A stretch of DNA of 64,000 nt from Planctomycetota bacterium (GCA_016209685.1 JACQVQ010000005.1:150655-214654); one strand, 5' to 3'. Numbered from the stretch's first letter, positions 32,089 to 63,825 are shown. Notes: a model not told the origin generated them from the letters alone. Translations and numbers: made by a program.

Positions 32089-32097
32089 GAGTGCCCA

Positions 32098-44498: not shown

Positions 44499-44625
44499 CA
44501 GGGACAAGGGGCAGGAACTAGGGGTCAGGGATTAGGGGTCAGAGGTCAGGGATTAGGGATTAGAAAAAGTTTATTTCCCTAATCCCTGGTCCCTGTTCCC
44601 TGTCCCCTAGTTCCTAGCTCCTGGC
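44499..44625. repeat. Family F inverted block (AGGGGTCAGGGATTAGG)
   Basis: GGTCAGGGATTAGGGATTAG units face CTAATCCCTGGTCCCTGTTC units around AAAAAGTTTATTTCC. It ends inside the 3' end of the radical SAM gene, so the protein's last residues are repeat-influenced. Confidence 0.7.
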
Positions 44626-49065: not shown

Positions 49066-49929
49066 ATGCAAAAGATTAGACGCAAGTCTTTGCTTTATAA
49101 AAGCAGAGTAGAATTCGCCGACTTCTGCATCAACCACGTGGAGGGGTGTTCTCATGGATGTAGATACCCCTGTTACGCCATGATGATGAAGAAAAGGTGT
49201 GGCGTAATTTCTTCTTATGAGGATTGGTGCAGGCCAAAGATCGTTGAGAATGCCCTTGAACTGCTAGAAAGGGAGTTATCAAGATACAATGGTAAAATCA
49301 AATCAGTCCACCTGTGTTTCTCTACAGACCCGTTTATGTTCGGGTATGATGAGATAGGACAGTTAAGTCTAAGGCTAATGAGGAGGTTAAACAGCGAAAA
49401 TATCCCCTGTACCGTTCTCACAAAAGGCGTTTACCCAAAGGAGATTGCCTTGCCTGCCCTGTACCCTCATGGTACAGGGGATGAGAGGATGTCGCCAGCC
49501 CAGGTGACGGAGCACCTGGGCTATAGGGTTGGGGCTCTGCCCCCAACCCTGCCTCAGGCACGGAGGAGAAACAAGTTTGGCATAACGCTCGTCTCCTTAG
49601 ATGAGGACTTCAGGAGAGATTACGAACCTAATGCCGCCGGATTTGAGGAACGTATTAAGTCCCTTAGATACTTACATGAAAAAGGCTTCAAGACGTGGGT
49701 GAGCATGGAACCATACCCCACGCCCAATATAATAAGGCAAGACCTGCTTAAAATCCTGGAGGCGGTATCGTTTGCCGATGAGATTATCTTCGGGAGGTTA
49801 AACTACAGCCCCAGGACAAGGGTCTTTTCGCATTCAAAGACCTTCTATAATGACCAGGCAAAGGCTGTAGTAAATTTTTGCAAGAGAAATAATATTTCGT
49901 ATTATATCAAGGATGGGACTATAACTTAA
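49066..49929 (+). CDS. SplB-like radical SAM protein 1
   Basis: 287 aa of the DNA-photolyase-like radical SAM group (COG1533). The cluster motif is NHVEGCSHGCRYPCYAMMM, with an extra residue before the last Cys, as in one subgroup. VHLCFSTDPFMFGYDEIGQL and TVLTKGVYP follow. Residues about 130-167 are almost wholly repeat-derived: a family I palindrome (YPHGTGD) and a family B element (AQVTEHLGYRVGALPPTLPQA) inserted next to each other between PKEIALPAL and KFGITLVSLD. Confidence 0.82.
   Translation: MQKIRRKSLLYKSRVEFADFCINHVEGCSHGCRYPCYAMMMKKRCGVISSYEDWCRPKIVENALELLERELSRYNGKIKSVHLCFSTDPFMFGYDEIGQLSLRLMRRLNSENIPCTVLTKGVYPKEIALPALYPHGTGDERMSPAQVTEHLGYRVGALPPTLPQARRRNKFGITLVSLDEDFRRDYEPNAAGFEERIKSLRYLHEKGFKTWVSMEPYPTPNIIRQDLLKILEAVSFADEIIFGRLNYSPRTRVFSHSKTFYNDQAKAVVNFCKRNNISYYIKDGTIT
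49457..49563. repeat. Adjacent family I and family B elements in a radical SAM gene
   Basis: 49457-49479 CCCTGTACCCTCATGGTACA... palindrome; 49499-49563 CCCAGGTG...CACCTGGG, GGGTTGGGGC...GCCCCCAACCC and GCCTCAGGC. Total insertion keeps frame. Confidence 0.88.
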
Positions 49930-50078: not shown

Positions 50079-50921
50079 CTAGCCGATGCAGTTACATCCC
50101 TGGAATGTCCAACCTAATTCCTCCCATACTTCATTAGTCTCTTTGCAAAGGGAGGGTTGGAAACCAAGCCATTCTGCTATCTTGTTATAGGCATTGACTC
50201 TTATATCCCGTAGATAACGCATCCTGCCGTCAGCGGCCTCCTTTAAGCCACAGCGAGGGGCATTTGGGGAAAAACGGTATAGCCCACGATACGGTCTCAA
50301 ACTGCTAATAGTCACCGTTTCCGGGGCAAGTTCGGCCACTCTCTGACATATCTCCTTATATGTTGTGAAAGCATCGTTTCCGTTGAGTATTATCGGGTCA
50401 AGTCTGATGCGAGTTCTCCAACCCTCTTCCTTCAATTTTGCCGCGGCTTTTAGGCGCTCTACCGGGTCAGGGGTTAAATGTTCATATTTACTCCAGGCCT
50501 CCATACTGTTTACAGAGAAAGAGACCACTACTTGTGGTGAAGGTTTATGAGCGAGCAAAGCCCCGATATTGCTACTTTTTGTAACCAGAATGAGGTATCT
50601 ATCTCTTTGAGAACTAAACCATTTTAAGGCAGGCTCAAAGTTTGGAGGTACAATGGCTAGAGAATCAGCGAGTATTCCAGTTACAAAATTGCCTTTGGGG
50701 AGGAGCGAAAGCTCTTTCTCAATCTCCTGCCACTGATTGGTAAAGAGGACGGGTTTTTTATTACCCTTAAAAGTTAGTTTGAGGTAGCAATATGAACAAT
50801 TATAGGGGCAACCGTTGGAAAGAATAAGCTCGTAGAAGTGCGGGCAGATAACTCCTTCTGGAGTCTTATCAAAGAGCCTTACGAAATTGCTTTTTCTTTC
50901 TCTGAGGAGAGGCGAATTCAC
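50079..50921 (-). CDS. SplB-like radical SAM protein 2
   Basis: 280 aa. FYELILSNGCPYNCSYCYLKLTFKG (Cx3Cx2C), GILADSLAIVP, ILVTKSSNIGALL and VVVSFSVNSMEAWSKYEHLTP match the spore photoproduct lyase-type radical SAM family. Ends TFQGCNCIG, with two late cysteines. Convergent with SplB-like 1. No repeat insertion. DNA lesion repair is one option, RNA or small-molecule chemistry another. Confidence 0.82.
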   Translation of the reverse strand: MNSPLLRERKSNFVRLFDKTPEGVICPHFYELILSNGCPYNCSYCYLKLTFKGNKKPVLFTNQWQEIEKELSLLPKGNFVTGILADSLAIVPPNFEPALKWFSSQRDRYLILVTKSSNIGALLAHKPSPQVVVSFSVNSMEAWSKYEHLTPDPVERLKAAAKLKEEGWRTRIRLDPIILNGNDAFTTYKEICQRVAELAPETVTISSLRPYRGLYRFSPNAPRCGLKEAADGRMRYLRDIRVNAYNKIAEWLGFQPSLCKETNEVWEELGWTFQGCNCIG

Positions 50922-51027: not shown

Positions 51028-51135
51028 CTAGTAATAAAAACATACGGTTACCCCCTCCGCCGTCTCCCCACTGTCTACGGCCGTTACCTTAAGACCGAGT
51101 TTATGGGAAAGACTGTGGGAGAGGATGTCATTCAT
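51028..51135 (-). pseudogene. Remnant copy of the 3' end of the 52107-53225 tail gene
   Basis: Minus-strand reading gives HKLGLKVTAVDSGETAEGV then TVCFYY and TAG, compared with DRLGLKVVAVDSGETAEGL...GYY at the end of the 372-aa tail protein. About 35 codons, no start of its own and no RBS. It marks the far end of a duplicated or deleted tail gene. Confidence 0.8.
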
Positions 51136-51190
51136 GCGGGTTAATATTGACTATTCTGTACCAGAGTGCCGCTGGTGTAACTATGTGTCT

Positions 51191-51388
51191 TTACTTAGTT
51201 CTTTGAATTTTCTTTATTGCTTGTTTGTGTAGGCATCTCAGTACAGGGAAAAAGAATCCAAAGGCACAAAGTACTCTTATTCCTTCGGATTTGGTAAAAT
51301 CATCAGGCCAGTAATGTAGCACTAAATATATTATTAAACCTAGAACACCTGCTTTCCCGGTCAGATGGAAGGGAAACCCGTTAGTCAT
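51191..51388 (-). CDS. Small membrane protein, unknown
   Basis: 65 aa. One or two hydrophobic stretches (GKAGVLGLIIYLVLHYW, IRVLCAFGFFFPVLRCL) and a basic tail. Start abuts the stop of 51388-51693. No family recognised. Confidence 0.4.
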   Translation of the reverse strand: MTNGFPFHLTGKAGVLGLIIYLVLHYWPDDFTKSEGIRVLCAFGFFFPVLRCLHKQAIKKIQRTK

Positions 51389-51693
51389 TACTTTCCTAAA
51401 TAATGGAATAATCCAGCTAATATTCCTAGTAGACCAAGAGAGGCGTAATAAACATCGGCTTGCACAACACCGAGGATTGTGAAAGAAAGCCCGGCAATTA
51501 ACAGAAACCCGACTAGAACGACGTCTTCAGTAATTACCTGTTTGATGTTCCGGGCAGGAGGAGCTTTAGGGTAATTCTCTGAACCACAATACAAAAACCT
51601 TATAGCCTCTGAAGAATCTTCAACGCATGTGTCTTTACTTACCCAGCGGGTGTTATTACCTTGGAAGGAATATCTAGTGGCTACTGTGTACAT
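51388..51693 (-). CDS. Small membrane protein, unknown
   Basis: 101 aa: soluble N-terminal 60 residues, then two hydrophobic segments (VVLVGFLLIAGLSFTILGVV, YYASLGLLGILAGLFHYLG). Three bases from the preceding gene; a mini-operon with its two neighbours. No family recognised. Confidence 0.5.
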   Translation of the reverse strand: MYTVATRYSFQGNNTRWVSKDTCVEDSSEAIRFLYCGSENYPKAPPARNIKQVITEDVVLVGFLLIAGLSFTILGVVQADVYYASLGLLGILAGLFHYLGK

Positions 51694-51696
51694 CTC

Positions 51697-51951
51697 TTAT
51701 ACCTTCCTTTTTAGATTATCAGGAGAGGAAACAGCTATCACATTGCTTGACTTAACAATATACATTGGATTATCATCACTATCATATCGCCCATCTACTC
51801 TCACAATCTCTGTTACTACAAGCTTCATCTTTACAACACTACCATCTTCTAGAAGGTATTCGCTCCAATTTTCTGAAGAAGATGTTCTTTCAATGGAGGT
51901 ACCCTCAAAAACCTCATTCCCAAGCTTAATCTTAACTTTATTCCTCCCCAC
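51697..51951 (-). CDS. Small beta-rich protein, unknown
   Basis: 84 aa: KVKIKLGNEVFEGTSIERTSSSENWSEYLLEDGSVVKMKLVVTEIVRV then DDNPMYIVKSSNVIAVSSPDN. Reads like a small barrel. First gene of the three-gene unit after the tail cluster; function unknown. Confidence 0.55.
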   Translation of the reverse strand: MGRNKVKIKLGNEVFEGTSIERTSSSENWSEYLLEDGSVVKMKLVVTEIVRVDGRYDSDDNPMYIVKSSNVIAVSSPDNLKRKV

Positions 51952-52106
51952 TATTTACGCTCCCCAGATATGCCATCTTTATTATATCGTATTCCAATAC
52001 CACTTATACTACATAAATGCCTATCCAACGTCAAGTGAATTTGGGCCTATCCTAAACTTGCAAAACAACCAATTTCAGATAGCCATGTACTTGCCTAAAA
52101 ACTAGT

Positions 52107-53225
52107 TTAATAATAGCCTAATAACACCCCTAGCCCCTCCGCCGTTTCCCCTGAATCCACGGCCACGACCTTGAGGCCGAGCCTGTCGCTTGCGGCGAAG
52201 GAGAGGCCAGGGGATAAAGTGGTTGACTGGTAGAGACTGCCTGCATTGAGGGTGGCTACCTTGCCGGTGGCCACACCATTCTTGAGTATCTCTATCTGGA
52301 GATTGCTTCCACTGGGGGCGCTCCTGGCAGAGAGGGTAATCTTATCAATGATAACGGCCTCGGCGAAGTAGTGGCCATCAAAGAATACGTCATTGAGTAT
52401 CGGGAAGCCCTCCAGATGGGCGGTAAGGTAGCGATGTTCCGTAACAGGGGCTTTTAAGAAGGCTCGGTAATCAGTGATGTCTGAACCCTGGACGTCCTTT
52501 ATCGTCCCTGCCCCGCCTGTGCCGTCGTCCTGAACCGTTACCATGCAGACGGGCATCTCGCCTGCTGGTAGGCTGGGGGCTACCACTGTCTCTTTTGTCT
52601 GGGCCTGTGTGCCTTCATATTTTTTTAGAAGGGCAGAGCCGTTCACCGTGAAAAGTATCTTGTTGTAGTAGTTGGCGGTGAGGGCGGAGACCTGGTATTC
52701 GCCACCTGTGCCGAGCCTGACGTTGGAGTTGCCCAGGTAGTTGACCCTGGTAGTCCCGATAAAGAAGAACCCTGGCTCTATCCAGATGGATTTATTGGCC
52801 GTGTCTTGTGGACGGGGGCGGAGGGCGTTGGTGATGCCCCTTGCAACGCCCAGGTGTTCATAGACCTTGTTCATGTCCTCTGCGTCTACAAGACTGCCCT
52901 TGCCAAAATAGATGGGCTGGACTACCTTGTCTGCGTCCGAGGAGTGGAACCAGACGTAGCCCATGACCCAGTCCACATAGAACTGACCCGCCTGGGTGGG
53001 GAGGGCCAGGTTCTCCGTGTAGCCTGAGATAGTTAGCCCTGAGTCCTTGTCGGGGAGTTCGTCCAGGCGGATACGATAGGGGCTGGAACTGGGGATGACC
53101 TTGTACTCGGTGTTGATGTACTGGAGGGTATCCCTTCGGTTGACCTCAAGAGAGGCGAAGGGGTCTTTCATCTCCTTTGTGATGGCTCGGAGGTCTAGTT
53201 TTAGGTCAATTAGGGTCGTTGGCAT
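52107..53225 (-). CDS. Phage tail/fibre-type structural protein
   Basis: 372 aa. GKGSLVDAEDMNKVYEHLGVARG, SIWIEPGFFFIGTTRVNYLGN and a beta-rich C-terminus (GVATGKVATLNAGSLYQS) resemble virion appendage proteins. Cotranscribed with the 188-aa gene upstream through a spacer that holds only a family A-like palindrome. Its 3' end exists again at 51028-51135. Confidence 0.6.
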   Translation of the reverse strand: MPTTLIDLKLDLRAITKEMKDPFASLEVNRRDTLQYINTEYKVIPSSSPYRIRLDELPDKDSGLTISGYTENLALPTQAGQFYVDWVMGYVWFHSSDADKVVQPIYFGKGSLVDAEDMNKVYEHLGVARGITNALRPRPQDTANKSIWIEPGFFFIGTTRVNYLGNSNVRLGTGGEYQVSALTANYYNKILFTVNGSALLKKYEGTQAQTKETVVAPSLPAGEMPVCMVTVQDDGTGGAGTIKDVQGSDITDYRAFLKAPVTEHRYLTAHLEGFPILNDVFFDGHYFAEAVIIDKITLSARSAPSGSNLQIEILKNGVATGKVATLNAGSLYQSTTLSPGLSFAASDRLGLKVVAVDSGETAEGLGVLLGYY

Positions 53226-53240
53226 TTTTCGTTCCTCTTT

Positions 53241-53267
53241 GTAGGGGCGGGGTAACCCCGCCCCTAC
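53241..53267. repeat. Family A-like palindrome (GGGGTAACCCC core)
   Basis: GTAGGGGCGGGGTAACCCCG...CCTAC, overlapping the stop of the 188-aa gene. Similar copies at 57860-57886 and 58362-58387. Confidence 0.85.
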
Positions 53268-53830
53268 TTCACGTGCAATTTAATCAAGACGTCTTTTCGG
53301 GCAGGGGTAAACCCTGCCCCTACATATCTCCCGTACATGGCCTTACCCCAGGCGGTAGAGCCGTAGACAACACTCCTGAGTAGCTCAATCTTTAGCCCAA
53401 TCATGTTCAGGCCCACGGGGGTCTGGGCGCCCTGGGGCATATTGAACTGGAAGTCTACGGTCTTTTTGGAGTTGGGCCAGAAGTCGCCGAGAGAAAGTCC
53501 CGTTGACACAGTCAGCGGACTCCATACAGAGGAGGTGGAGAGCTTTGCTTTCAGGTAGCCGTTCTGGACTATCTCCTGCCCCAGTTCATTGCTTGCCCCA
53601 TAGGTAAATGCTGACAGCCTCACTTCCTCCACCCTGTCGGCCTCCTGTCGTCTGGCGTACCAGAGGTCAAGGGACCACGTCCTGGTCTGGCCCTTCTCGT
53701 ACCAGTCTATGGGGATGGTGAGGATTTCTACATCGGTCTTGCCTGCGGGATAGAGTTCCAGGTACTCCTCCCCCAGCCTGCGATTTGCGGGGTCAAAGAT
53801 AGTCGTGAAATTAAGCGTCAGTGGGGGCAT
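53264..53830 (-). CDS. Tail-module protein, unknown
   Basis: 188 aa: EEYLELYPAGKTDVEILTIPIDWYEKGQTRTWSLDLWYARRQ, then LGDFWPNSKKTVDFQFNMPQGAQT. Beta-rich, no membrane segments; likely a virion or baseplate-associated structural protein by context. A palindrome (53298-53323) is in frame as YVGAGFTPARKDV near the C-terminus. Confidence 0.55.
   Translation of the reverse strand: MPPLTLNFTTIFDPANRRLGEEYLELYPAGKTDVEILTIPIDWYEKGQTRTWSLDLWYARRQEADRVEEVRLSAFTYGASNELGQEIVQNGYLKAKLSTSSVWSPLTVSTGLSLGDFWPNSKKTVDFQFNMPQGAQTPVGLNMIGLKIELLRSVVYGSTAWGKAMYGRYVGAGFTPARKDVLIKLHVK
53298..53323. repeat. Palindrome in frame in the 188-aa tail-module gene
   Basis: CGGGCAGGGGTAAACCCTGC...TAC, read as VGAGFTPAR. 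Confidence 0.8.
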
Positions 53831-53835
53831 TTTTC

Positions 53836-53905
53836 AAATGCGGAGTTCGGAATACGGAGTGCGGAATTGAAACAACTCCGCAATCCGCATTCTGCATTCC
53901 GCATT
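53836..53905. repeat. Family D hairpin
   Basis: AAATGCGGAGTTCGGAATAC...GCGGAATTG faces CCGCAATCCGCATTCTGCAT... Strong secondary structure between two tail-module genes. Confidence 0.8.
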
Positions 53906-53908
53906 CCT

Positions 53909-54253
53909 CTAGGGTACATATTCATACATCACTCCTTGTACTGGTGGTACGGCCAAATCCCACGCATCTATCTCTGCCTGTACGTTCTCCTCATAGGCCC
54001 AGGGCTGGGGGGGCCTGACTTCTATCTCATAGCTTGCCGGCGTTCCAGAGTATTTAAAATAAGGGCTGGTGGAATCATAGGTATTGACTCCATGAGAATC
54101 TGTTACCTTTACCTTCACCGTCCCGATTGCCACCCCTGGCCCATCGCTCTTAATTGTAAACCTTACACCGTCGCTTACAGGGACGTTGGTCTGGCCGTCC
54201 TGGGGGATAGGGTATCGCATTATGTATGGGCCTGGAATTGGGTCTCTAGGCAT
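53909..54253 (-). CDS. Ig-like beta-sandwich protein in the tail module
   Basis: 114 aa: PIPQDGQTNVPVSDGVRFTIKSDG and VKVTDSHGVNTYDSTSPYFKYSGTPASYEIEV resemble a bacterial Ig-like (Big/SbsA type) domain found on virions and surface proteins. Start overlaps the preceding stop (TAATG). Confidence 0.6.
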   Translation of the reverse strand: MPRDPIPGPYIMRYPIPQDGQTNVPVSDGVRFTIKSDGPGVAIGTVKVKVTDSHGVNTYDSTSPYFKYSGTPASYEIEVRPPQPWAYEENVQAEIDAWDLAVPPVQGVMYEYVP

Positions 54254-54582
54254 TATTTGTCCTCGCCTTTTAGGGCAGGGGCGGTCTCCACCCCTACAAA
54301 TTCCAGCGTATCAGGGTTCAATCTCCACTTCCCGTCCAGCCCACAGCCTTCAGTGATTCCCCTTACCAGCCCTTCCCTCTCTGCCTGCAAGCCTGCCGTC
54401 TCTATCTGCAACGCCCTGGCCCTCTCGTTTAGCAGGGCAAGCTGTAGATTAATGTTGCTGATTGAGAGGTTCAGCCTCTCTAGCTTTAATCTGTCTAGCT
54501 CTTTGAGTTCGGGCTTGGTCTGGGGCTTATGCAATAAGCCCCTACAGTTCCCCTGACCCCTATTCCCTATTTTTTGTTCCAC
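54253..54582 (-). CDS. Coiled-coil protein in the tail module
   Basis: 109 aa using GTG 54582, which has AAAGGAGG five bases upstream; the ORF-track start at 54705 is inside family D repeats. LKELDRLKLERLNLSISNINLQLALLNERARALQIETAGLQAEREGL is a long coiled coil. The N-terminal MEQKIGNRGQGNCRGLLHKPQ is repeat-derived (family F string and a palindrome at 54521-54545). Role unknown. Confidence 0.6.
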   Translation of the reverse strand: MEQKIGNRGQGNCRGLLHKPQTKPELKELDRLKLERLNLSISNINLQLALLNERARALQIETAGLQAEREGLVRGITEGCGLDGKWRLNPDTLEFVGVETAPALKGEDK

Positions 54583-54596
54583 GAAGACCTCCTTTT

Positions 54597-54705
54597 CAAA
54601 TGCGGATTGCGGATTGCAGATTGCGGAGTTCAATTCCGCACTCCGCACTCCCCATTCCGCACTCGGAACGCATTCCCCATTCCCCACCCCGCATTCGTTA
54701 CGCAT
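54597..54705. repeat. Family D repeat
   Basis: TGCGGATTGCGGATTGCAGA...TCCGCACTCCGCACTCCCC, with CACTCGGAACGCATTCC as at 22017. Confidence 0.75.
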
Positions 54706-56389
54706 AGGCCACCTCTGCCGTTACCAATGTACCATCCGATTTTTTGATTCTGAATTTTAACTTGCCCGCCGCCTCATCAAGCCAAGCAGTAGTCTCACTA
54801 TTGGAGAGGTCGGCATCTGTGGGGGCTGAGTTCGGCACCCCAAGGCTGAGCCTGCCTGCCACGTGGGCCAGAAACTTTGGGGCAGTCGTACCAATGCCTA
54901 CCTTGCCATCGGTCAGGATGTTGAATGGTTCGCTTGTCCCGATTACCCCTATCGTAAAGCGGTCGCTCCCCCCTGAGCCATACCTGTATATACCCCAGGT
55001 AGAGCCGCCTGACCTGCCTAGACGCATGGCCACTACCCCATCGGCCTGATTATGCAGATGGAGTCTTGCACTTGGGCTGTTAGTGCCGATACCCAGATTC
55101 TTACTTGAATTGTCCCAATAAAGATACCCGTTATCCTCTGTGAACAATCCGCCTGTACCAATGAATGGCACAGAGCCAGTGGTGAGGGACGTGGCCTTGA
55201 GGCTACCAGCCGCTATGGTCGCCCAGGAATCATTTATGTTTTTCACCTGGAGCGTCTCATCAATGTTTTGGAGTAAGAGGTCTGTAACAGGAGTGGCATC
55301 CACGTCCTTGAGTCTGAATCTGCCGTTACAATATAATCGCCCTGCCCCCTGTGGCCTCATCTCTATATCTATGTCTGTGTCCGTCCCGTATGCCGCAATC
55401 CCTAAAAACCCATCACTGGCAGGGATAGCAAGACGGCCATATTTAGCAGCGTTATACTGCCCCCATTCAAGCCATCTTCTTATGCCTACATCGCCTATAT
55501 TATCTGCGCTGAATACTGTATCCGTATTGTTGGTGAATGAAAATAATGGCTGCCCGCCAGGGACGGCCTTTGTATCTTTGATACGGAAGAGTGCGCCTAA
55601 TACTGAAGTATCCCCCTCTGCGTTAACCAACCCATCTACGGTCGGCGTACCTACAGCTAATTGTGATAGTATCAATGGGGCATAGGCGGTATTGGTGGAG
55701 TTTCTGGCCCTTAGGGCACCGTCTATCACGTCAAGGAGTACATCACCAACCGGCGTAGCATCCACATCTTTAATCTTGGGACTCTGCAAGAGCTTGTTGA
55801 GGAGGGTCTGGACATCAGTAGTCCCAACAAGTGAGCCACTAACCCCATGAACGCCAGAGGAGGCCCCCAGGTGGGTATCAATTTGAGCGTGGGTGTTTGA
55901 GCCTATGTCGCTAAGGACGGTATGGGACTTGGTAGTGATGTCCGCAAGACTGGAGACGGTCTTGTCTATATACCCCCAGGGGTAGTCCCCCAATTGGGGC
56001 ACCACTGCCCCTGTCCTGCCGAAGACGGAGAGGACGGTATCAGTAGGAGTAAGGAGTTCGCTCCAATCAGCCATAGTACCAGCCGTACCGCCGTTGTGGG
56101 CGTAGGATTTATTCTGGTCGGTGCGGATGGCGATGTCGCCCTCCTGAGCGGTGAGGGCAAGTTGTGCCACCTCGGAGGCCACCGTCCATATATCCGTCAG
56201 GGCCAGGGCAGGGAGTTGGGAGGAGGGGACCTTACCCCCGCTATCCAGTTCCGCAAGGCCGTTGGGCTGTCCTGGTTCACGACCGTCTACCTTGTCGGCA
56301 TCCAGGCCAGAGCCTGCACCCTGGTTGGTCTTGGTAACGGCTAAAATGTCTATTATGTCGCCTGAGCCTAGTTTATGTTTGACTGGCAT
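54698..56389 (-). CDS. Phage tail fibre-like protein
   Basis: 563 aa from ATG 56389 (MPVKHKLGSGDI); the extra 14 residues of the ORF are repeat-encoded. SVFGRTGAVVPQLGDYPW is a recurrent tail-fibre motif, as are GSNTHAQIDTHLGASSGVHG and LGIGTNSPSARLHLHNQADG with VGIGTTAPKFLAHVAGRLS, which precede C-terminal receptor or chaperone regions in many fibres. KIKDVDATPVGDVLLDVIDGALRARN and LKDVDATPVTDLLLQNIDETLQVKN are internal repeats. Confident as a fibre. Confidence 0.85.
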   Translation of the reverse strand: MPVKHKLGSGDIIDILAVTKTNQGAGSGLDADKVDGREPGQPNGLAELDSGGKVPSSQLPALALTDIWTVASEVAQLALTAQEGDIAIRTDQNKSYAHNGGTAGTMADWSELLTPTDTVLSVFGRTGAVVPQLGDYPWGYIDKTVSSLADITTKSHTVLSDIGSNTHAQIDTHLGASSGVHGVSGSLVGTTDVQTLLNKLLQSPKIKDVDATPVGDVLLDVIDGALRARNSTNTAYAPLILSQLAVGTPTVDGLVNAEGDTSVLGALFRIKDTKAVPGGQPLFSFTNNTDTVFSADNIGDVGIRRWLEWGQYNAAKYGRLAIPASDGFLGIAAYGTDTDIDIEMRPQGAGRLYCNGRFRLKDVDATPVTDLLLQNIDETLQVKNINDSWATIAAGSLKATSLTTGSVPFIGTGGLFTEDNGYLYWDNSSKNLGIGTNSPSARLHLHNQADGVVAMRLGRSGGSTWGIYRYGSGGSDRFTIGVIGTSEPFNILTDGKVGIGTTAPKFLAHVAGRLSLGVPNSAPTDADLSNSETTAWLDEAAGKLKFRIKKSDGTLVTAEVAYA

Positions 56390-56404
56390 TTGTTTGTCCT
56401 TTCC

Positions 56405-56497
56405 GTAGGGGCGAACGGCCCTATACCACAAGGGTACAGGGCAGGGATGCAGGGTAAGCCCTGAACCGTTTCTGGTTCAGGGGCCGTTCGCCCCTAC
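56405..56497. repeat. Nested palindromes upstream of the fibre gene
   Basis: Outer arms GTAGGGGCGAACGGCCC (56405-56421) and GGGCCGTTCGCCCCTAC (56481-56497). The loop contains CCCTATACCACAAGGGTACA... and CCCTGAACCG...CGG TTCAGGG-type palindromes, i.e. two family I-type elements inside one family A-type element. Confidence 0.8.
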
Positions 56498-56500
56498 CGG

Positions 56501-57613
56501 TCAATCAAAAAATCCCTGGTCTATATCAGCAATCAGGGTCTTTTTCATCTGTCCGTTGCCTAGCCTTTTTATCAGATAATTCTTGAGGGTGGGCTCCCAT
56601 ATACTTACTATCTCCCCCTCATTGCCCCTACTCCGTACCCATGCACCACCACCGCCAGCATAATAAGGTGGGTTGTATGCCTCGGAGATAATATCATCTG
56701 TAGCATCGTCATAATGGGCATTGCTCACGGCGACAGAAAGATTCTTATGCGTCTTGGAGAGTATCAGGGAGGCCAACTCTTGGATGATGGCCGTATAGGC
56801 TGGCGAAAGCCGGTTAAGGCTATAGGTATCCCAGGTCTTATCATAGACCCAGGGGCCTTCAAGGCTATTGGCTTTGTACTGGACAAGGTTCTCAGAATAA
56901 GGATTCCAGGGAATACCGTAGATACCACTGTCTTGCTTATAAATTACTATCTTGTAGCCATAATTAGGGTCAGAGTTATCTACATAGAGCCAACCCAGAG
57001 AATAGAAAGCCTTTTGACTATCCTGTATTGCAACCTTGACTTCCTTTGTCTCTGTCTTTTTTGTATTTAACTTTGCGTAGTAGATAGCATCGGTGAAATT
57101 ATAAGGGGCCCAGAAGAAGACATAGTCTTTAAAGAAAATAGGGTAATTGTTGGTTGTGAGAGTAATCCCCTCAAACATGTTCCCGATTGGAATCCACCCC
57201 CACCCACCACCTTCAAGGGGAACTAACCGCTTTGTGGCCTGTGCCTCCGCACTCCAGTTTTTAAGTTGAATGCTTTGTAAATAAGGGGCGTCCACCCACC
57301 CAGTATATTTATACAAAAGGTGTACCCCATCGGGGTTTGTGGTGCTGGATTTCTTAAACAGGTTGGCTACCTGGATGTTATGCTCTGTAGGGCTAAAGAC
57401 TCCCTGGTTGAACTTGTGGATATAGCTGAAGACCGTTACCAGTTCCTCCGGTGGCCTCCTGAAAATGGGCTGGTGGGCGAACCTCTGCTCGGGGAGGACC
57501 TGCTCAATGGGAACAAAGCCCTTGTCTGCCATCATGAAGTTGCCCATCCTGGTGGCATTCGGGAGGAGCCTGTATTGACCCTTATTATCTTGGTAGACGT
57601 AATCTTTTCTCAT
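56501..57613 (-). CDS. Tail-module protein of unknown function, with duplicated 5' end
   Basis: 370 aa. MRKDYVYQDNKGQYRLLPNATRMGNFMM at the start, then FAHQPIFRRPPEELVTVFSYIHKFNQG and YKYTGWVDAP; aromatic-rich and mostly beta by inspection. The start codon is confirmed by two truncated relatives of the same N-terminus upstream (57669-57741 and 57851-57919). Function unknown; context suggests a fibre-associated or receptor-binding protein. Confidence 0.65.
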   Translation of the reverse strand: MRKDYVYQDNKGQYRLLPNATRMGNFMMADKGFVPIEQVLPEQRFAHQPIFRRPPEELVTVFSYIHKFNQGVFSPTEHNIQVANLFKKSSTTNPDGVHLLYKYTGWVDAPYLQSIQLKNWSAEAQATKRLVPLEGGGWGWIPIGNMFEGITLTTNNYPIFFKDYVFFWAPYNFTDAIYYAKLNTKKTETKEVKVAIQDSQKAFYSLGWLYVDNSDPNYGYKIVIYKQDSGIYGIPWNPYSENLVQYKANSLEGPWVYDKTWDTYSLNRLSPAYTAIIQELASLILSKTHKNLSVAVSNAHYDDATDDIISEAYNPPYYAGGGGAWVRSRGNEGEIVSIWEPTLKNYLIKRLGNGQMKKTLIADIDQGFFD

Positions 57614-57668
57614 AGCCTAAAAACATTGTAAATTGGAAATTGGAAATTTAAAATTTGAAATTTACAGA

Positions 57669-57741
57669 AGCCCCCTATCCTCTCGGCGTTCTGGAGGAGC
57701 TTGTACTGGCCTTTATCTTGATAAACGTAATCTTTTTTCAT
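57669..57741 (-). pseudogene. Truncated 5' copy 1 of the 56501-57613 gene
   Basis: MKKDYVYQDKGQYKLLQNAERIGGF compared in pieces: MKKDYVYQD and GQYKLLQNAERIGG align with MRKDYVYQDNKGQYRLLPNATRMGN. Open but without the rest of the gene; it runs into family E repeat sequence. Confidence 0.75.
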
Positions 57742-57744
57742 AAA

Positions 57745-57843
57745 ACTCTAGACCCTTCGCTACGCTCAGGGTGACACTTCGTGTCAGATTCTTCGCTCCC
57801 CCTTCGCTACGCTCAGGGCTTCGGCTCACTCAGAATGACAAGG
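57745..57843. repeat. Family H repeat (CTTCGCTACGCTCAGG)
   Basis: ACCCTTCGCTACGCTCAGGG, then GATTCTTCGCTCCCCCTTCG and CTCACTCAGAATGACA. It separates the two 5' copies of the 370-aa gene. Confidence 0.75.
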
Positions 57844-57850
57844 AGGGGTG

Positions 57851-57919
57851 GCGTTCTGGTAGGGGCGGGGTTACCCCGCCCCTACGTCTTTATCTTGATA
57901 GACGTAATCTTTTTTCATA
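57851..57919 (-). pseudogene. Truncated 5' copy 2, interrupted by a palindrome
   Basis: MKKDYVYQDKD then a family A-like palindrome (57860-57886) bringing a stop (VGAG*), then CAGAACGCC matching the QNA codons of copy 1. So the palindrome inserted into the copied gene start. Upstream AAACATTGGAAATTGGAAAT is shared with the intact gene. Confidence 0.75.
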
Positions 57920-57966
57920 GCCTAAAAACATTGGAAATTGGAAATTTAAAATTTGAAATTTACAAT

Positions 57967-58182
57967 TCATTCCCCTGTCTGCTGACCCCTGACTGCTGAC
58001 TGCTGATTCCTGTCTTTCTTCAACTTATCCAGCTTCTTTGCAATCTCAAACTGCTGGTGGAAGCCCAGGCGACAGAGCGCCTGGGCTATAGGGTTGGGGC
58101 TCTGCCCCCAACCCTGGGCCAGGACAAAGAAGCCCAGTATCCAGCACAGGGTCAGGGCTATAGTAACCAGGGTATCTAGCAT
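57967..58182 (-). CDS. Small single-span membrane protein in the tail module
   Basis: 71 aa from ATG 58182. MLDTLVTIALTLCWILGFFVLAQ is a membrane segment; FHQQFEIAKKLDKLKKDRNQQ is a basic coiled tail. Between them a family B element (58064-58115) is in frame as GWGQSPNPIAQALCRLG. It could be a holin-like or spanin-like protein of a lysis or tail module; this is weak inference. The end QQSAVRGQQTGE is repeat-derived. Confidence 0.5.
   Translation of the reverse strand: MLDTLVTIALTLCWILGFFVLAQGWGQSPNPIAQALCRLGFHQQFEIAKKLDKLKKDRNQQSAVRGQQTGE
58064..58115. repeat. Family B double stem-loop in frame in a small membrane protein gene
   Basis: CCCAGGCGACAG...CGCCTGGG and GGGTTGGGGC...GCCCCCAACCC; the same peptide as in the 44614-45738 radical SAM protein. 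Confidence 0.88.
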
Positions 58183-58346
58183 TTTAATTCCGAATTCCGA
58201 AGTCCGAATTCCGAATTCGGGCTTCTGTCCGTACACTCCTTCTTGCAGTATTCAATCTCCACCGTCTTTCCCAGGAACTTACAATAGGTCCTGGGGGTTC
58301 CGCCCTCGTCCCTATACCTCGCGGCCATTGTGCACCAGAAGGTCAT
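58176..58346 (-). CDS. Small Cys-rich protein (below ORF-track cutoff)
   Basis: 56 aa: MTFWCTMAARYRDEGG, TPRTYCKFLGKTVEIEYCKKEC and a repeat-derived end (SPNSEFGLRNSELKC). Four regularly placed Cys suggest a small zinc-binding fold. ATG preceded by GGAG; stop overlaps the next gene's ATG region; overlaps the zinc-ribbon gene by 4 nt. Adjacent to a second zinc protein. Confidence 0.55.
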   Translation of the reverse strand: MTFWCTMAARYRDEGGTPRTYCKFLGKTVEIEYCKKECTDRSPNSEFGLRNSELKC

Positions 58347-58528
58347 GGTCTCTTTATCTCCGGTGGGCGGGGTAACCCCGCCCCTACGTTATAAATCCGC
58401 CAGGAGAAATGACAGCCCTCGCAGATCCATATCTGATACGAGCCGTTATCCTCCAGTAACTTTGCCACTAAACTTTTGCAACGGGGGCATTCTTCTGGCC
58501 GAACTTCTTTTGTCTCTCCCTCTCCCAT
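58343..58528 (-). CDS. Small zinc-ribbon protein
   Basis: 61 aa. ECPRCKSLVAKLLEDNGSYQIWICEGCHFSWRI has two CxxC knuckles, as in phage Com-like or ribbon proteins. ATG has AAGGAGG four bases upstream and lies within the end of the lipoprotein gene. The tail YNVGAGLPRPPE is a family A-like palindrome (58362-58387). Confidence 0.65.
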   Translation of the reverse strand: MGEGETKEVRPEECPRCKSLVAKLLEDNGSYQIWICEGCHFSWRIYNVGAGLPRPPEIKRP

Positions 58529-59298
58529 TGGACCTCCTTAACTCTGGCGTTCATATCTAGCGGGGTGGATGAATGCCTCTCCGCTAGGGTGGCGTTGATT
58601 TCCTCTCTCATGTCGGGATGCTTGACCTTCAAATCTTCAACCCCTTCAATGGTATCTATGTTGGCCTTCTTCTCCCTCCTGGCCCGTCTCAAGAGCCAGG
58701 CGCTGACACCTCCGCCTGTACCGGCGGTTGCGAGGCCAATGGCCCAGGGAAGGATGTCATTGAACGTCCACTTGGCGATACCTTTCATCTGCTCTATGGC
58801 CTGAGGATAGGCCTGCATACCTATGGCCCCCTGCATACCTGCGTAGGCGAGATACTGGGCAGTGGAGGTCTCCGTGCTATCAATTCCCCTGCCTGCTATC
58901 CCGCTCACGGCCTTTGTCGTACCGTCCACTGTTCCGATTTCTCGCAGCACTTTATCTTCCAATCCCACTCTAACTATGCCCGCCACTGCATTGGCGTTGA
59001 TGTTGGTCAGGGCCTCGGGGTCCTTAGTGTTCTTTGCCGATTCGGTGGCGACGGTCTTTATGGCCTCCACCTTCGCCTGGGCAATGGGGACAGCCACCTC
59101 CTTCATGGCTGTTACCTTCTCCTTCTGTGCCTCAGCCACGGCCTTGACGGACTCAATAGAGATTTCCTTGCTGGCCTGTACCTGGTGTTCCTTTGGCCCC
59201 GGGGCCTGGACTATCGGGAAGGACATACAACCGCTGAGTAGTAGTAGTCCGCCTGAGGCGGATATGTATCTGCCCACAATTTGTAAAGACTTTTTCAT
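58468..59298 (-). CDS. Tail-module lipoprotein with C-terminal membrane segment
   Basis: 276 aa from ATG 59298 (GAAGGAGG five bases upstream; the track start at 59313 is within the SD). Lipobox LLLLSGC near residue 24 predicts a lipid-anchored protein. Long alpha-helical region KEISIESVKAVAEAQKEKVTAMKEVAVPIAQAKVEAI, then DILPWAIGLATAGTGGGVSAWLL as a second membrane span followed by a basic tail. A family C palindrome (59247-59262) encodes SASGG right in the signal peptide. Confidence 0.65.
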   Translation of the reverse strand: MKKSLQIVGRYISASGGLLLLSGCMSFPIVQAPGPKEHQVQASKEISIESVKAVAEAQKEKVTAMKEVAVPIAQAKVEAIKTVATESAKNTKDPEALTNINANAVAGIVRVGLEDKVLREIGTVDGTTKAVSGIAGRGIDSTETSTAQYLAYAGMQGAIGMQAYPQAIEQMKGIAKWTFNDILPWAIGLATAGTGGGVSAWLLRRARREKKANIDTIEGVEDLKVKHPDMREEINATLAERHSSTPLDMNARVKEVQWERERQKKFGQKNAPVAKV

Positions 59299-59388
59299 AC
59301 GTTCCTCCTTCACAGGCTAAAGTCATGCCAAAGGCAGACCTGCCTCAGGCACGGCCTGCGGCTACTATTCCCTGACCCCTAAGTTCAT

Positions 59389-59462
59389 GCCCAATCAAAC
59401 CTCGGTGAACCACGTGGGGTTCACCGCTATGCACCCTACGTGGTGCATAGCAATCAATAGAC
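59389..59462. other. Copied 3' end of the next tail gene with palindromes between the copies
   Basis: 59389-59406 on the minus strand reads RFDWA then stop, matching the end LRFDWI of the 59469-60122 gene (CCAATCAAACCTC is repeated at 59390 and 59475). Between the two copies lie GGTGAACCACGTGGGGTTCACC and ATGCACC...GTGCAT-type palindromes, as at 33573-33621. Confidence 0.6.
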
Positions 59463-59468
59463 TCCAAA

Positions 59469-60122
59469 TCATATCCAATCAAACCTCAAGGCAAAGACAG
59501 GGTTGGCGTTAAAAGGCCCCGCCCCTGCCGGGACCCTGATGGCCAGGTTAAAGTAAAGTTCCGTTGGGCCAGTCAGGGGAGTGGCTGAGAGTATCAGGCG
59601 GTTGGCGTCTGCACTGCCTGCCAGGCTCTTTGCCTCACCGCCTGCCACCCAGTCGGGATTTATGGGGCCTGCACCGGTGGTGGCTATGCCCTTGATAAAA
59701 GAATTATCGGGCGTACCACTGCCCAGGGCTTTTGAGTTTATGGTGTTGTGGTTTGAATTGTCCCAGCACTCCAGATAGACAGGCCCTGACGTAGGGCCGT
59801 CAAAGTGGACGCAGAAGGGATAGCGTGTAGCCCCGCCTGACTGCTTGCCCTGGTTCGTCCCTGCCAGGGGGACCTGCTCTATGGTGGAGCCGTTGTCTAT
59901 ATAGGTCTCGTCTACCTCCACAGAGCCAGAGTCAGGGACAACGATATTATCCCTGGTATTAGCAGGGTCACCGTCGGTTGCGGCCTGACCTGTGGGGGCA
60001 AAGAGGTGTCCTGAGGCCCCGGCGGTGATGAGTTTAAAGTTAGCGTCTTCCGCAGGGCCGGCGGTCTTAGCTACATCATTCGTACCCTGATTATAGAACC
60101 AATAGACGTTCGGTTGTGGCAT
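59469..60122 (-). CDS. Tail-module structural protein, unknown
   Basis: 217 aa beta-rich protein: NVYWFYNQGTNDVAKTAGP, RYPFCVHFDGPTSGPVYLECWDNSNHNTINS, GPTELYFNLAIRVPAGAGPF. Resembles virion decoration or tail-tube type proteins only in general composition. Directly follows the zinc-finger gene without spacing. Confidence 0.55.
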   Translation of the reverse strand: MPQPNVYWFYNQGTNDVAKTAGPAEDANFKLITAGASGHLFAPTGQAATDGDPANTRDNIVVPDSGSVEVDETYIDNGSTIEQVPLAGTNQGKQSGGATRYPFCVHFDGPTSGPVYLECWDNSNHNTINSKALGSGTPDNSFIKGIATTGAGPINPDWVAGGEAKSLAGSADANRLILSATPLTGPTELYFNLAIRVPAGAGPFNANPVFALRFDWI

Positions 60123-60359
60123 CTAAGTTAATCCTTTCTGACCCGCATTGAGCCAGTCTTTATGTTCCTTCTTGCATCCTTTAGTGCAACATGGGTAGTG
60201 GGAACTTTTTACTAGTCGCCCTCCACAGATGACACAAGTCCTCCTGTTGGGCAGACTGGCATAAAGGGCGTCACTCAACAGCGTGGCTGAAAAGACGTCC
60301 TCTACGGCCCGTGTACCGAAATTTAAAAACCCTTCCCGTCTCCTATGGCTAGTTTTCAT
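60123..60359 (-). CDS. Small zinc-finger-type protein
   Basis: 78 aa: CVICGGRLVKSSHYPCCTKGCKKEHKDW has Cys and His pairs of a treble-clef type site. Basic N-terminus (KTSHRRREG). Stop adjoins the next ATG. Confidence 0.6.
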   Translation of the reverse strand: MKTSHRRREGFLNFGTRAVEDVFSATLLSDALYASLPNRRTCVICGGRLVKSSHYPCCTKGCKKEHKDWLNAGQKGLT

Positions 60360-60377
60360 TAGGTTTGCTCCATCTGT

Positions 60378-60484
60378 ATTCCGAGTGTGGAATGGGGAAT
60401 GCGGAATGCGGAATGCGAAGTTATTTTAATTCCGCATTCCGCAATCCGAAATCCGCATTTAAAACATTCCGCATTCCGCATTAC
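60378..60484. repeat. Family D repeat block
   Basis: TGGGGAATGCGGAATGCGGA... facing ATTCCGCATTCCGCAATCCG... The 60359-60568 ORF of the track is mostly this repeat and is not annotated as a gene. Confidence 0.8.
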
Positions 60485-60735
60485 CCGTGATGTACCCTCA
60501 GGTACCATGCCAGGAGGGTGGTGAAGGCCGCCCCGAAGAAGCCCGCCATACCCAGGACGACGTGCCACCTGGTCTTCAGGGCCACCAGGTCATTGTGGTC
60601 CCTAAGGAATACGGCTATTAGGTCCTCCAGGTGGCTGACCTTTTCTTCCAGGCGGGCTACCTTCTCCGCTACCCCTGAGGTCTGTCTTATAAGCCCCTCC
60701 AACTCTTCCAGAATACGCCCCTCGCAGTTCCTCAC
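60481..60735 (-). CDS. XhlA/holin-like coiled-coil membrane protein
   Basis: 84 aa. GTG start with AAGGAG upstream. ILEELEGLIRQTSGVAEKVARLEEKVSHLEDLIAVFLRD is a coiled coil, followed by one membrane segment VVLGMAGFFGAAFTTLLAWYLRV. This is the typical XhlA-like build of phage or tail-cluster holin accessory proteins. Confidence 0.6.
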   Translation of the reverse strand: MRNCEGRILEELEGLIRQTSGVAEKVARLEEKVSHLEDLIAVFLRDHNDLVALKTRWHVVLGMAGFFGAAFTTLLAWYLRVHHG

Positions 60736-60909
60736 CCTCTTCTCCTTTTCAATTGGTGGACTATTGACATTGGACTTTAGACTTTAGACTTTGGACTCTG
60801 GACCTTTCCTCTTAATGCGGATTGCAGATTGTGGATTGCGGAGTTGTTTTAACTCCACATTCCGCACTCCCCATTCCACACTCCACATGTTTAGTCCATA
60901 GTCCATAGT
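60736..60909. repeat. Intergenic repeats
   Basis: ACTTTAGACTTTAGACTTTG direct units at 60773-60803, then family D (TGCGGATTGCAGATTGTGGA...) and TAGTCCATAGTCCATAG. No gene. Confidence 0.65.
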
Positions 60910-61113
60910 TCATACCCCACGTATCTCTCCCAGAAATAGTAGTTCATCAGCATTACCGTTCAGTGGGATAGCTACCCCCACGTTCTTGCTAAACTGGTTC
61001 AGCAGAGAGATAGAGGAGATTAGTCCTCCGGTGCCCAACCTCCCCACCAGATTACTGGCCAGTACTGGGCCTACCTCTTTTCCCCCACCTGAGACTGGTA
61101 CCATTTCTTTCAT
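60910..61113 (-). CDS. Small tail-module protein, unknown
   Basis: 67 aa: GKEVGPVLASNLVGRLGTGGLISSISLLNQFSKNVG and PLNGNADELLFLGEIRG. Start one base after the hub gene stop (TGAAATG), with GGAGG upstream. No family recognised. Confidence 0.5.
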   Translation of the reverse strand: MKEMVPVSGGGKEVGPVLASNLVGRLGTGGLISSISLLNQFSKNVGVAIPLNGNADELLFLGEIRGV

Positions 61114-61114
61114 T

Positions 61115-63007
61115 TCAAGCCAACCTCCCCTTTACCGTGAGCCTTGTAAGGGCAGTACCCTCAAAGACGTCCTTTTCTACCTCGTAGCCCACTACTATAG
61201 GAACCGAGGCGAGGCCGGGTGAAGAAATGACCTCCATACCGTCCAGACTGGAAAAGGCAGGCATGTCTACCTGAAGCCCAAGGGCCACGTTTAATTCTCC
61301 AAAGACCTCGTAGGTGCGGACTACCTCGTCATGGCCCAGGTCTTCCTCCAGGAGCGGCAGGATAGTCTCCAGAGACTCCCAACTGGGGGTGTTCACTGCA
61401 ACCTCCAGGGCAGGGGACTCCATTGGGCCTTCACTGCCTATCCCCTTCTCGGCATAAACCTGCATCTTCCTGAACTCCACAGGAGAACCCTGCACCGCCC
61501 CCGCCTGCACTATCTGCACGTCTACACTGGTGGAGTACCTACCCTCGCGGTTCAGCCTCGTATGCTCCCGCCTGACACCGTAGGAATCCCTGCTTAGTTG
61601 ATAATAGGACACTGACTCCACACGTAGGATCTTTCGCTTGACGGTGCCATCGGGAGAGATGTCGTCCTTATTAAGAGAACTCAGTGGACTGAAGGTCTCG
61701 TCATCCTCGGTATAAACCGGCCCGGAGGTGATGGTGTACTGGGCCGCCAGCTCCCCGTGGGGGCTGTACCAGTAATAGGTAGAGGTTTCTTCCGGGACAC
61801 GGTAAAGCCCAAAGACCACCTCCCCATTGGATGGATAGAACATCGCCTGGTACAGGGTGCTCACCCGCCCCGGCCTGGCATTGAAGTCCTGTCCCACCAC
61901 GTTGCCGTACTCCCTGGGGGAGGCAAAGCTCCCGTGGGTATTTTCGTACAGAAAGGCGGTATCCTGTATGGAATACACGATGGAATGAAGGCCTGATTCC
62001 GTCTGCCTCCAGCGATGGGTAACATGGTATTCACTCAAAAGGGAGGTGACCTTACCAAAGACGTCCTTACCTCTCAATACGGAGACCACCTCCAGAGAGA
62101 AATTGTTTACTATCCCGGAATCAGGGTCCACTCCGTTTGCATCAACGTCTATGAAAGATACGCTGTCCGTCCCGGTAACGAAGCTATCCCGTGTCGTGCC
62201 GTAGCAGTAGTTGCTGGCCAGGATACTACCTGCTGGGGCTTCCACCTTCTGGAAGGGTTCGGGGCTCAGGATGCCTTTATATCGCTCAGACCTGAAACCC
62301 CCCAGGTTGCCCGTGAGGCGGAGACGGCCTGCCCTGGCTGAACTGTTCCCCCTCTTTACCTCCTCCCCCACCATCCTTACCCCCTGGAGGCCCAACGTGT
62401 TACCTGAAACGGTCCCCCTCCCCATATCCATCTCTGCTACAATAAAGACCTCTCCCTCCACACTGTAGAGAAGGGGTTTCAAAGGGGAGACCAACTCCAG
62501 GATGGCCCCCAGAAAGGTAGCGGAGGGTTTTACTGTAAATTGCTTTACCCAGTAGGCAGGTAGACCTATGCGGACATTTATCCCCAGGAGACCTGCCAGT
62601 ACCTGGATGATACTGTTGGAGTCCCATCCCCTCTCCCCAAATGCATTCCCCAGTCGTATCAGGGGCCTGAATTCCAGGCTATCCTCCTTCCCCCCATATT
62701 CCACCTGAAACTCTTCATACTCCCTGGCGGTAAGGGTGAGGAAGAGTTGGGTCTTCCCGGGGGAACGTCTGGCTTCCTTACTCAGAGAGGAGAGGAGACT
62801 GAGTTCCTGGGCCAGGCCCCCCGGGAGTAGTCTCTTGTCCAGGCCCTCCACCAGGAAGGCCCTGTCCTGTCCACCTACGGACACTGACACCTCCTGGCCG
62901 GGCTGGTAACCCCCTCCGAGGGTAGAGAGGGTAAGCGTGGCCCCCTCGACCCACTCCCCCGCCCGATGTCTGAGGTTCAGTCTGGTTATGTTCTCGTTTA
63001 TCTGCAT
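61115..63007 (-). CDS. Tail hub/baseplate-like protein
   Basis: About 630 aa from ATG 63007 (MQINENITRL); the ORF start at 63043 is inside a terminator stem. N-terminal GGGYQPGQEVSVSVGGQDRAFLVEGLDKRL and IIQVLAGLLGINVRIGLPAYW...LGAILELVSPLKPLLYSVEGEVFIV are reminiscent of tail hub (gpD/gp44-like) proteins, where an RNA-fold-like tandem is followed by a long beta region. Assignment is by pattern, not by strong motifs. Confidence 0.5.
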   Translation of the reverse strand: MQINENITRLNLRHRAGEWVEGATLTLSTLGGGYQPGQEVSVSVGGQDRAFLVEGLDKRLLPGGLAQELSLLSSLSKEARRSPGKTQLFLTLTAREYEEFQVEYGGKEDSLEFRPLIRLGNAFGERGWDSNSIIQVLAGLLGINVRIGLPAYWVKQFTVKPSATFLGAILELVSPLKPLLYSVEGEVFIVAEMDMGRGTVSGNTLGLQGVRMVGEEVKRGNSSARAGRLRLTGNLGGFRSERYKGILSPEPFQKVEAPAGSILASNYCYGTTRDSFVTGTDSVSFIDVDANGVDPDSGIVNNFSLEVVSVLRGKDVFGKVTSLLSEYHVTHRWRQTESGLHSIVYSIQDTAFLYENTHGSFASPREYGNVVGQDFNARPGRVSTLYQAMFYPSNGEVVFGLYRVPEETSTYYWYSPHGELAAQYTITSGPVYTEDDETFSPLSSLNKDDISPDGTVKRKILRVESVSYYQLSRDSYGVRREHTRLNREGRYSTSVDVQIVQAGAVQGSPVEFRKMQVYAEKGIGSEGPMESPALEVAVNTPSWESLETILPLLEEDLGHDEVVRTYEVFGELNVALGLQVDMPAFSSLDGMEVISSPGLASVPIVVGYEVEKDVFEGTALTRLTVKGRLA

Positions 63008-63026
63008 GGTATAGATGTACCTTGTC

Positions 63027-63076
63027 AAAATAAAAAGGCCCAAAGGTCTTTCTGCGTCAAAAAGACCTTCGGGCCT
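63027..63076 (-). terminator. Rho-independent terminator upstream of the hub gene
   Basis: On the minus strand AGGCCCGAAGGTCTTT, loop, AAAGACCTTTGGGCCT (one G-U) followed by TTTTATTTTG. It should end transcription of the retropepsin unit, so the hub gene needs its own promoter or read-through. Confidence 0.75.
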
Positions 63077-63348
63077 CTTGGAATCCTGTCCGCCTTAGGC
63101 GGATGGAACCTTCGGTTACCGTTTCTCAGGAATCAGGGAGTAGGGGCGGTTCGCGAACCGCCCCTACAATCTTTCTGCTGTCTGCTGACTGCTGACTACT
63201 GACTGCTGTCTCCTGTCTGCTGACCCTACACCTCTTTATATAACATATCTTTCAAAAGAGTAAATGGCTGGATTCAACAGGATGCCACCGGATTTAACAG
63301 GGGAGTCAAAAATAAGTGATATTGGGTGCGTCCAGACGCACCTTACTA
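63077..63348. repeat. Intergenic repeats before the retropepsin gene
   Basis: 63089-63103 family C (TCCGCCTTAGGCGGA); 63140-63167 perfect family A-type palindrome with arm GTAGGGGCGGTTCG; 63170-63225 CTGCTGTCTGCTGACTGCTG direct units. 63226-63348 shows no gene. Confidence 0.75.
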
Positions 63349-63825
63349 CTAATAGGCAAACGTAAAGAACCCACCGAAACCGTTATAGATAAAGACAGTT
63401 TTAGCCAGTATATCTCTGCCAATTAGTGCAATGAGGGGTTTATCGCCTACGCCTTGTCCCTTGAGGTTTACTCCGATTGCTGAATTAAACTCAACCTCAA
63501 ACCCATGTACGGGAAATCGTAGCCTAGCAGGATAAAGACTCTGCTGAACTGGACCAGCAGCAGTCATGGTAGTGGTAGTGCCTATTGGATTAACCCCTAA
63601 TGTGGAGACGGCTTGTTCGTCTATGCAACTTCGTGTAGCACCAGTATCTATAAGCGCAAAACCAGACACTGACGGTGGGATAGAGAGATTTTGTGTTGTT
63701 AAATACTGGACAAGTGCAGAAGGAACAGCAATTTCAACTTCTAGCACAGGGCCTACGTGAGCCAACAAATTTGGATTGGGTCGGTTACTCCTTGTATCAA
63801 TATAATGACGATTATAAACGGGCAC
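63349..63825 (-). CDS. Retropepsin-like aspartic protease
   Basis: 158 aa. SGFALIDTGATRSCIDEQAV contains the DTGA catalytic motif of retropepsin-like clan AA proteases, and KPLIALIGRDILAKTVFIYNG matches the C-terminal IGRDxL block. One catalytic Asp per chain, so it acts as a dimer. GTG start overlaps the upstream partial gene by 14 nt. No signal peptide. Confidence 0.85.
   Translation of the reverse strand: MPVYNRHYIDTRSNRPNPNLLAHVGPVLEVEIAVPSALVQYLTTQNLSIPPSVSGFALIDTGATRSCIDEQAVSTLGVNPIGTTTTMTAAGPVQQSLYPARLRFPVHGFEVEFNSAIGVNLKGQGVGDKPLIALIGRDILAKTVFIYNGFGGFFTFAY

Follow-up and report, generated by a model that had tools for sequence, protein, structure and literature searches.

The right-hand end of the DNA stretch analyzed here (the window, 64,000 nucleotides, corresponding to positions 150655-214654 of contig C3 of genome G000) carries a row of tail-like structural genes, and the question raised by this locus was what kind of particle these genes serve. 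An earlier note on the window had read them as a headless, domesticated tail or as the arm of a decaying prophage. The G000 assembly comprises 2.02 Mb in 14 contigs and is 94.6% complete. Its named relatives include RIFCSPHIGHO2_12_FULL_52_36, RIFCSPLOWO2_12_FULL_50_35 and one "Brocadiaceae" MAG, among others. Two relatives are counted in Ca. Bathyanammoxibiaceae (2-02-FULL-50-16-A), a deep Brocadiales family with anammox genes (PMC9723696). The deep-subsurface, anammox-type family carrying the genes described below is taken to be largely Ca. Bathyanammoxibiaceae (Brocadiales, Planctomycetota), and G000 itself is tentatively placed there by kinship; the host is known solely through metagenomes.

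The tail module was found to be a series of long ORFs, all on one strand (the minus strand) as had been claimed, with genes at 52107-63007 and a host-like GC content (0.520 vs 0.523). The module is thus real, but the extent first given for it (51028-63076) included, at 51028-52106, a separate inserted low-GC cassette that is not a tail gene (GC 0.37-0.42; ORFs 51388-51693 and 51697-51951). Most module genes are kept in relatives; solid database matches were obtained for the fibre only.

The 5'-most gene (61115-63007) encodes a 630-aa hub-like, or distal tail, protein. It lies directly 3' of the tail-tube gene in G003, G004 and G006, and the protein is 93% identical to that of G001, 68% to that of G006, ca. 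51% to those of G005, G003 and G004, and 34-36% to that of G009. No match was found in Pfam, PHROGs, the PDB or 50,697 phage records, and the earlier label "hub-like" is therefore kept as a putative role, assigned by conservation and by the position after the tube gene. AlphaFold models of this protein (pLDDT 36) and of the 217-aa protein described below (pLDDT 43) were too poor for a fold search. The hub gene is followed by that of a 67-aa protein (60910-61113), kept in those cluster genomes that have this stretch (identity 98% in G001, 70% in G006 and 37-47% in G003, G005, G009 and G004; dN/dS 0.04-0.17). Next comes an 84-aa protein (60481-60735; identity 95% in G001, 73% in G006 and 54-58% in G003-G005). 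It had been called XhlA-like, a label for which Pfam gave no support; visual inspection of this small protein suggests a coiled coil and a single transmembrane segment, and a holin-like role is putative. A 78-aa Cys-rich (zinc-ribbon-like) protein (60123-60359; identity 97% in G001, 62% in G006, 34% in G003) and a 217-aa beta-rich structural protein (59469-60122; 77, 57 and 55% in the same genomes) precede a 281-aa lipoprotein with a C-terminal membrane segment (58468-59313). The last matches G006 at 52%, and G001 has a different lipoprotein at this position.

Beyond the lipoprotein lies the ORF of a small membrane protein (57967-58236), both ends of which fall in dispersed repeats and which has a short match to a 69-aa ORF of G006 (E=8e-5). 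The 370-aa protein encoded upstream of the fibre (56501-57613) matches G001 in two blocks (73% and 63%) and has an N terminus common to G006, G003 and G004. The tail fibre (54698-56431) consists of a conserved N-terminal anchor, common to G001, G003 and G004, and a variable remainder; matches to PHROG tail families (phrog_26941, E=1e-17; phrog_8780, E=4e-14) bear out its earlier identification as a strong fibre. A search of G000 with the fibre returned the fibre alone, i.e. no second copy. The module is completed by a 150-aa coiled-coil ORF with a repeat-derived N terminus and no Pfam match (54253-54705), a 114-aa protein with an Ig-like (Big_5-type) domain that matches the C termini of S8-protease and kelch proteins of G003 at 37-49% (53909-54253), a 188-aa protein of the fibre end (53264-53830; 50% to G003), and a 372-aa protein (52107-53225) that matches G003 over its full length (54%) and has weak minor-tail similarity (PHROG, 1e-4 to 2e-3).

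The lack of head, portal and terminase genes that had been reported holds for the window and is an effect of its edge; such genes are present in the genome, on contig C2, and beside the hub in relatives. On C2 the portal (78594-79802) and the large terminase (81271-82944) are on the minus strand, and an HTH protein before the terminase is a possible small terminase. Some 18 kb further on, past genes that are mostly unremarkable host genes, the protease (102263-103018), capsid (103090-104259) and connector (104427-104948) follow on the plus strand. The earlier note had proposed that the contig be extended to the right and searched for tail tube, sheath and tape-measure genes. C3 ends at 217060, only 2.4 kb beyond the window and within host repeats; the tube gene is absent from all G000 contigs and present in relatives. 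C2 ends at a delta-60 gene (106852), and C3 ends just past another such gene. By analogy with the gene order of G001, the ends of C2 and C3 would be neighbours, and the unassembled gap between them would hold the tube gene: in G001, the protease, capsid, connector, tube, hub and fibre occupy one 16.3 kb contig, along with two inserted beta-propeller genes of the delta-60 kind.

The cluster of G003 spans ca. 31 kb, whereas the parts in G000 are scattered. Outward from the hub, G003 encodes a Phage_tube_2 tail tube, a 174-aa protein in the tail-terminator position, a gp6-type connector, an HK97 capsid, an S78 protease, the portal and the terminase; G004 has the same row from terminase to hub. 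In G006 the terminase, the capsid and the tube-hub pair are on three contigs, with host genes around each. Pfam and PHROG matches identified the terminase, portal, S78 protease, HK97 capsid, gp6 connector, Phage_tube_2 tube and fibre as tailed-phage-derived. The Walker A (APRGHGKS), Walker B (IICDDLED) and nuclease residues of the terminase are present in G000, G003 and G006; the copies in G005 and G009 are either truncated by the end of a contig or deviate from the search pattern at one motif.

Selective constraint was estimated as dN/dS by the Nei-Gojobori method. Values were 0.05-0.20 for the capsid, 0.05-0.11 for the portal, 0.14-0.19 for the protease, 0.13 for the terminase, 0.13-0.16 for the connector, 0.16-0.26 for the tube, 0.20-0.21 for the 84-aa protein and 0.14-0.20 for the 217-aa protein. 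The hub gave 0.20-0.22 between genera (0.20 against G006) and 0.38 in the closest pair. Structural genes mostly fell at 0.05-0.25, compared to 0.11-0.30 in housekeeping genes (PheT 0.12-0.30, RpoD 0.11, DnaG 0.24), with mostly similar dS, and no internal stops occurred in the cluster genes compared. The most strongly conserved genes of the cluster include those of the capsid, protease, portal, terminase and connector. Between G000 and G006, most cluster genes had a dS of 0.78-1.3, compared to 1.17 for PheT; the 217-aa gene reached 2.2. In the G000-G001 comparison, the 217-aa (0.85) and 370-aa genes had dS near 0.8, far above the 0.07-0.25 of hub, capsid and housekeeping genes; the fibre-side genes have therefore probably been exchanged between close relatives.

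Parts of the cluster (hub, capsid, terminase, portal and tube were searched in each genome) were found in eight of nine family genomes and in one neighbouring family. G008 is the sole family genome in which none of these five was found; G005 and G007, the assemblies of which are fragmented and 82-90% complete, lack some. Of 75 genomes of the class, 7 encode a capsid of the cluster kind; six belong to the family and one to the neighbouring family. Scanning 84,980 species by sequence pattern yielded no others. Capsids at ca. 69% identity or more are confined to the cluster clade, which was recovered as one group (100% support) against 25 IMG/VR capsids. In seven genomes (G000, G001, G003, G004, G005, G006 and G007) the terminase adjoins one and the same host gene, which is read divergently; further host genes are in kept order near the terminase in G001, G004 and G007, and the portal is near dnaG-rpoD in G000 and G001. 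Cluster divergence tracks that of PheT. Capsid identity to G000 is 99% in G001, 97% in G002, 87% in G006, 77% in G004, 75% in G003 and 71% in G009; PheT identity, where PheT was found, is 88% in G002, 77% in G006, 60% in G004, 57% in G003 and 46-56% in G009. With 5-7 taxa per tree, the topologies obtained for capsid, portal and hub match that of PheT; those for terminase and protease contain weak forks and no strong conflict with it. The earlier claim of long residence is upheld by the conserved host neighbours, the host-like tree, purifying selection and host-like GC.

The claim of dense host repeats was also confirmed. Repeats cover 6.3% of the module vs 2.7% of window positions 1-51027 (within the module, 30% of the bases outside coding sequence and 1.4% of those inside it), and one 3.9 kb stretch gave 89 matches across the genome. 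Just upstream of the hub gene, a repeat-flanked inserted cassette that is not structural (63230-63825, minus strand) consists of a ca. 80-bp direct repeat and an aspartyl-protease gene (63349-63825; Asp_protease_2). This repeat bounds both aspartyl-protease and delta-60 beta-propeller cassettes (window 63230-63312; L009:4133-4215 and 6332-6403), which look like a row inserted among the particle genes. Small cassettes of another sort, several of them toxin-antitoxin-like (DUF4258 + MqsA-like, HTH + M78, HicA), lie 3' of pheT, the terminase, the portal and the 372-aa gene, and behind each of them the final 50-160 bp of the preceding gene recur in diverged form, as if recombination had inserted them at gene 3' ends (window 31402-32171 and 51028-52240; G000:C2:77271-78692 and 80054-81349; L068:4165-6071; L064:7265-8555). 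For the 372-aa gene, the decayed copy of the 3' end is at ca. 51028-51105 (76% over 51 bp; alignment score 44 vs a shuffled maximum of 27). Dispersed repeats also stand in frame within conserved protein genes, contributing peptides such as EHQGYSIGALPPM and GWGQSPNPIAQAL (window 37390-38661, ArgJ-like; 49066-49929, radical SAM; 44614-45738; 1386-3341; and the C2 terminase); they resemble the Rickettsia palindromic elements. Two radical SAM genes (49066-49929 and 50079-50921) adjoin the module, and a relative of one window radical SAM gene (SPL-like) lies within the G003 cluster at 16619-17524. In G003 (L024:9570-16365), G005 (L023:522-1550) and G006 (L021:14687-15688), the fibre end of the cluster contains sugar-nucleotide and glycosyltransferase genes; one such glycosyltransferase is common to G003, G004, G005 and G006 and absent from the G000/G001 cluster.

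At the level of genes, these comparisons establish an intact tailed-phage structural and packaging set that is under purifying selection across the family and at a conserved chromosomal place. The set includes a tail-terminator-like protein, host genes break the cluster in some members, and no integrase lies alongside. A published definition of gene transfer agents (GTAs; Kogay et al. 2022, PMC9662315) calls for tailed-phage-derived particle proteins, full endogenisation, often at multiple loci, and mostly vertical inheritance; it further asks that the packaged DNA be mostly random host DNA, that the head be too small for the element's own genome, and that DNA be delivered to cells. The half of this definition that is testable from sequence describes the present cluster. 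Its genes are endogenised over several loci (two places on C2 and the end of C3 in G000; three host-flanked contigs in G006), and trees, identity ranking, dS and the shared host neighbour all indicate mostly vertical inheritance and co-diversification with the host. We consider it likely that the module encodes the distal portion, with hub, fibres and accessory proteins, of a GTA-like particle that is built from several chromosomal loci and works as a GTA, probably of an independent lineage. In such a system, a few cells would express the particle genes under some host-controlled condition, the terminase would load the heads indiscriminately with available host DNA, the producer cells would lyse, and the fibres would bring the DNA to kin, where it would recombine. 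The fuller proposal, an independently evolved GTA of anammox-type Planctomycetota with a short, tape-measure-free tail that has mediated recombination (along with fibre exchange) in subsurface bacteria since before the family diversified, is given an even chance.

Several observations count against the GTA reading. No endolysin was seen in the cluster, the tube gene is missing from the G000 assembly, and the parts searched for are lacking altogether in G008 and to some extent in G005 and G007. In G003, G004 and G006 the tube abuts the hub, with no tape-measure or tail-chaperone gene between them, so tail assembly is left without an explanation. A search of G000 for tape-measure family PF10145 gave no match; the tail may be very short, or a tape measure, perhaps of another family, may be encoded elsewhere and have escaped recognition.

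IMG/VR siphophages with Phage_tube_2 tails (L080, L085 and L086) carry portal, protease, capsid (ca. 37%) and tube (29%) in the order of the cluster. Their existence, and the tailed-phage origin of all parts, would suit a family-wide temperate phage or its remnants, i.e. one prophage lineage that repeatedly lysogenised the same site and left defective copies. These contigs differ from the cluster in having chaperone-size genes and, where the sequence reaches far enough (L085 and L086), a gene of tape-measure size (1252-1867 aa) after the tube, and their capsids form a separate clade. The earlier note would have been refuted, in its own terms, by a complete prophage, head genes included, past the 64 kb of the window. 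Head genes exist, but the scanned ORFs of the cluster neighbourhoods held no integrase or other recombinase and no replication or endolysin family, unlike a temperate prophage with its integrase and self-mobilisation genes. The sole transposase-type match there comes from the HTH of the putative small terminase, and the single Phage_integrase-family (tyrosine recombinase) gene of G000, on C8, is probably a Xer recombinase. Host genes separate the loci, divergence, trees and dN/dS are host-like, and repeated lysogeny is strained by the shared location, with the same neighbour at the terminase in seven genomes. A temperate phage is accordingly judged unlikely.

Decidedly unlikely is a domesticated particle with another job, such as the killing of relatives or protein delivery (tailocin-like or defensive), that transfers no DNA. 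R- and F-type tailocins share with the cluster a phage-derived tail with exchangeable fibres in a bacterial chromosome; the fibre-side exchange noted above (dS 0.8 vs 0.07-0.25) recalls bacteriocin-type target switching, and the missing tape measure also fits. Such tailocins, however, have no capsid, portal or terminase, whereas in the cluster MCP, portal and TerL are present and constrained; in a headless device, these genes and the protease should have decayed. The first reading, a headless domesticated tail or decaying prophage arm, holds for the window taken alone and is otherwise highly improbable, as both versions are refuted: domestication stands, but the terminase, portal, protease, HK97 capsid and connector in the same genome, contiguous with the hub in relatives and under constraint, rule out a headless tailocin, and dN/dS and intact, stop-free frames rule out a decaying prophage.

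The preferred reading, a GTA-like particle, was compared with known GTAs by features. RcGTA-type GTAs (Rhodogtaviriformidae) likewise derive their head, packaging and tail genes from tailed phages, are inherited vertically and occupy several loci; the cluster, known from its genes alone, differs in belonging to another phylum and in lacking tape measure and chaperones between tube and hub. In the Brachyspira GTA (VSH-1/BhGTA), the terminase is apart from the structural genes, gene order is not kept among species, and the element co-diversifies with its host (PMC9662315). The likeness of the cluster to BhGTA lies in these three features; BhGTA, unlike the cluster, has an endolysin and demonstrated gene transfer.

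Formally classified GTA groups number three, two alphaproteobacterial and one spirochaetal (PMC9662315), and the true prevalence of GTAs has been called an open question (PMC11841831). No GTA report from Planctomycetota, Planctomycetes or Brocadiales was found in the open-licence literature, although one may have been published elsewhere. Contig-by-contig reading can miss a GTA: IMG/VR lists one piece of this cluster as a viral contig (L019). The candidate is testable without culture, via capsid-protected groundwater DNA. A conserved, constrained, multi-locus GTA candidate from an anammox-type family would extend GTAs to a further phylum and mark an independent domestication, and a GTA here would provide a means of gene exchange for bacteria that do not lend themselves to ordinary genetics.
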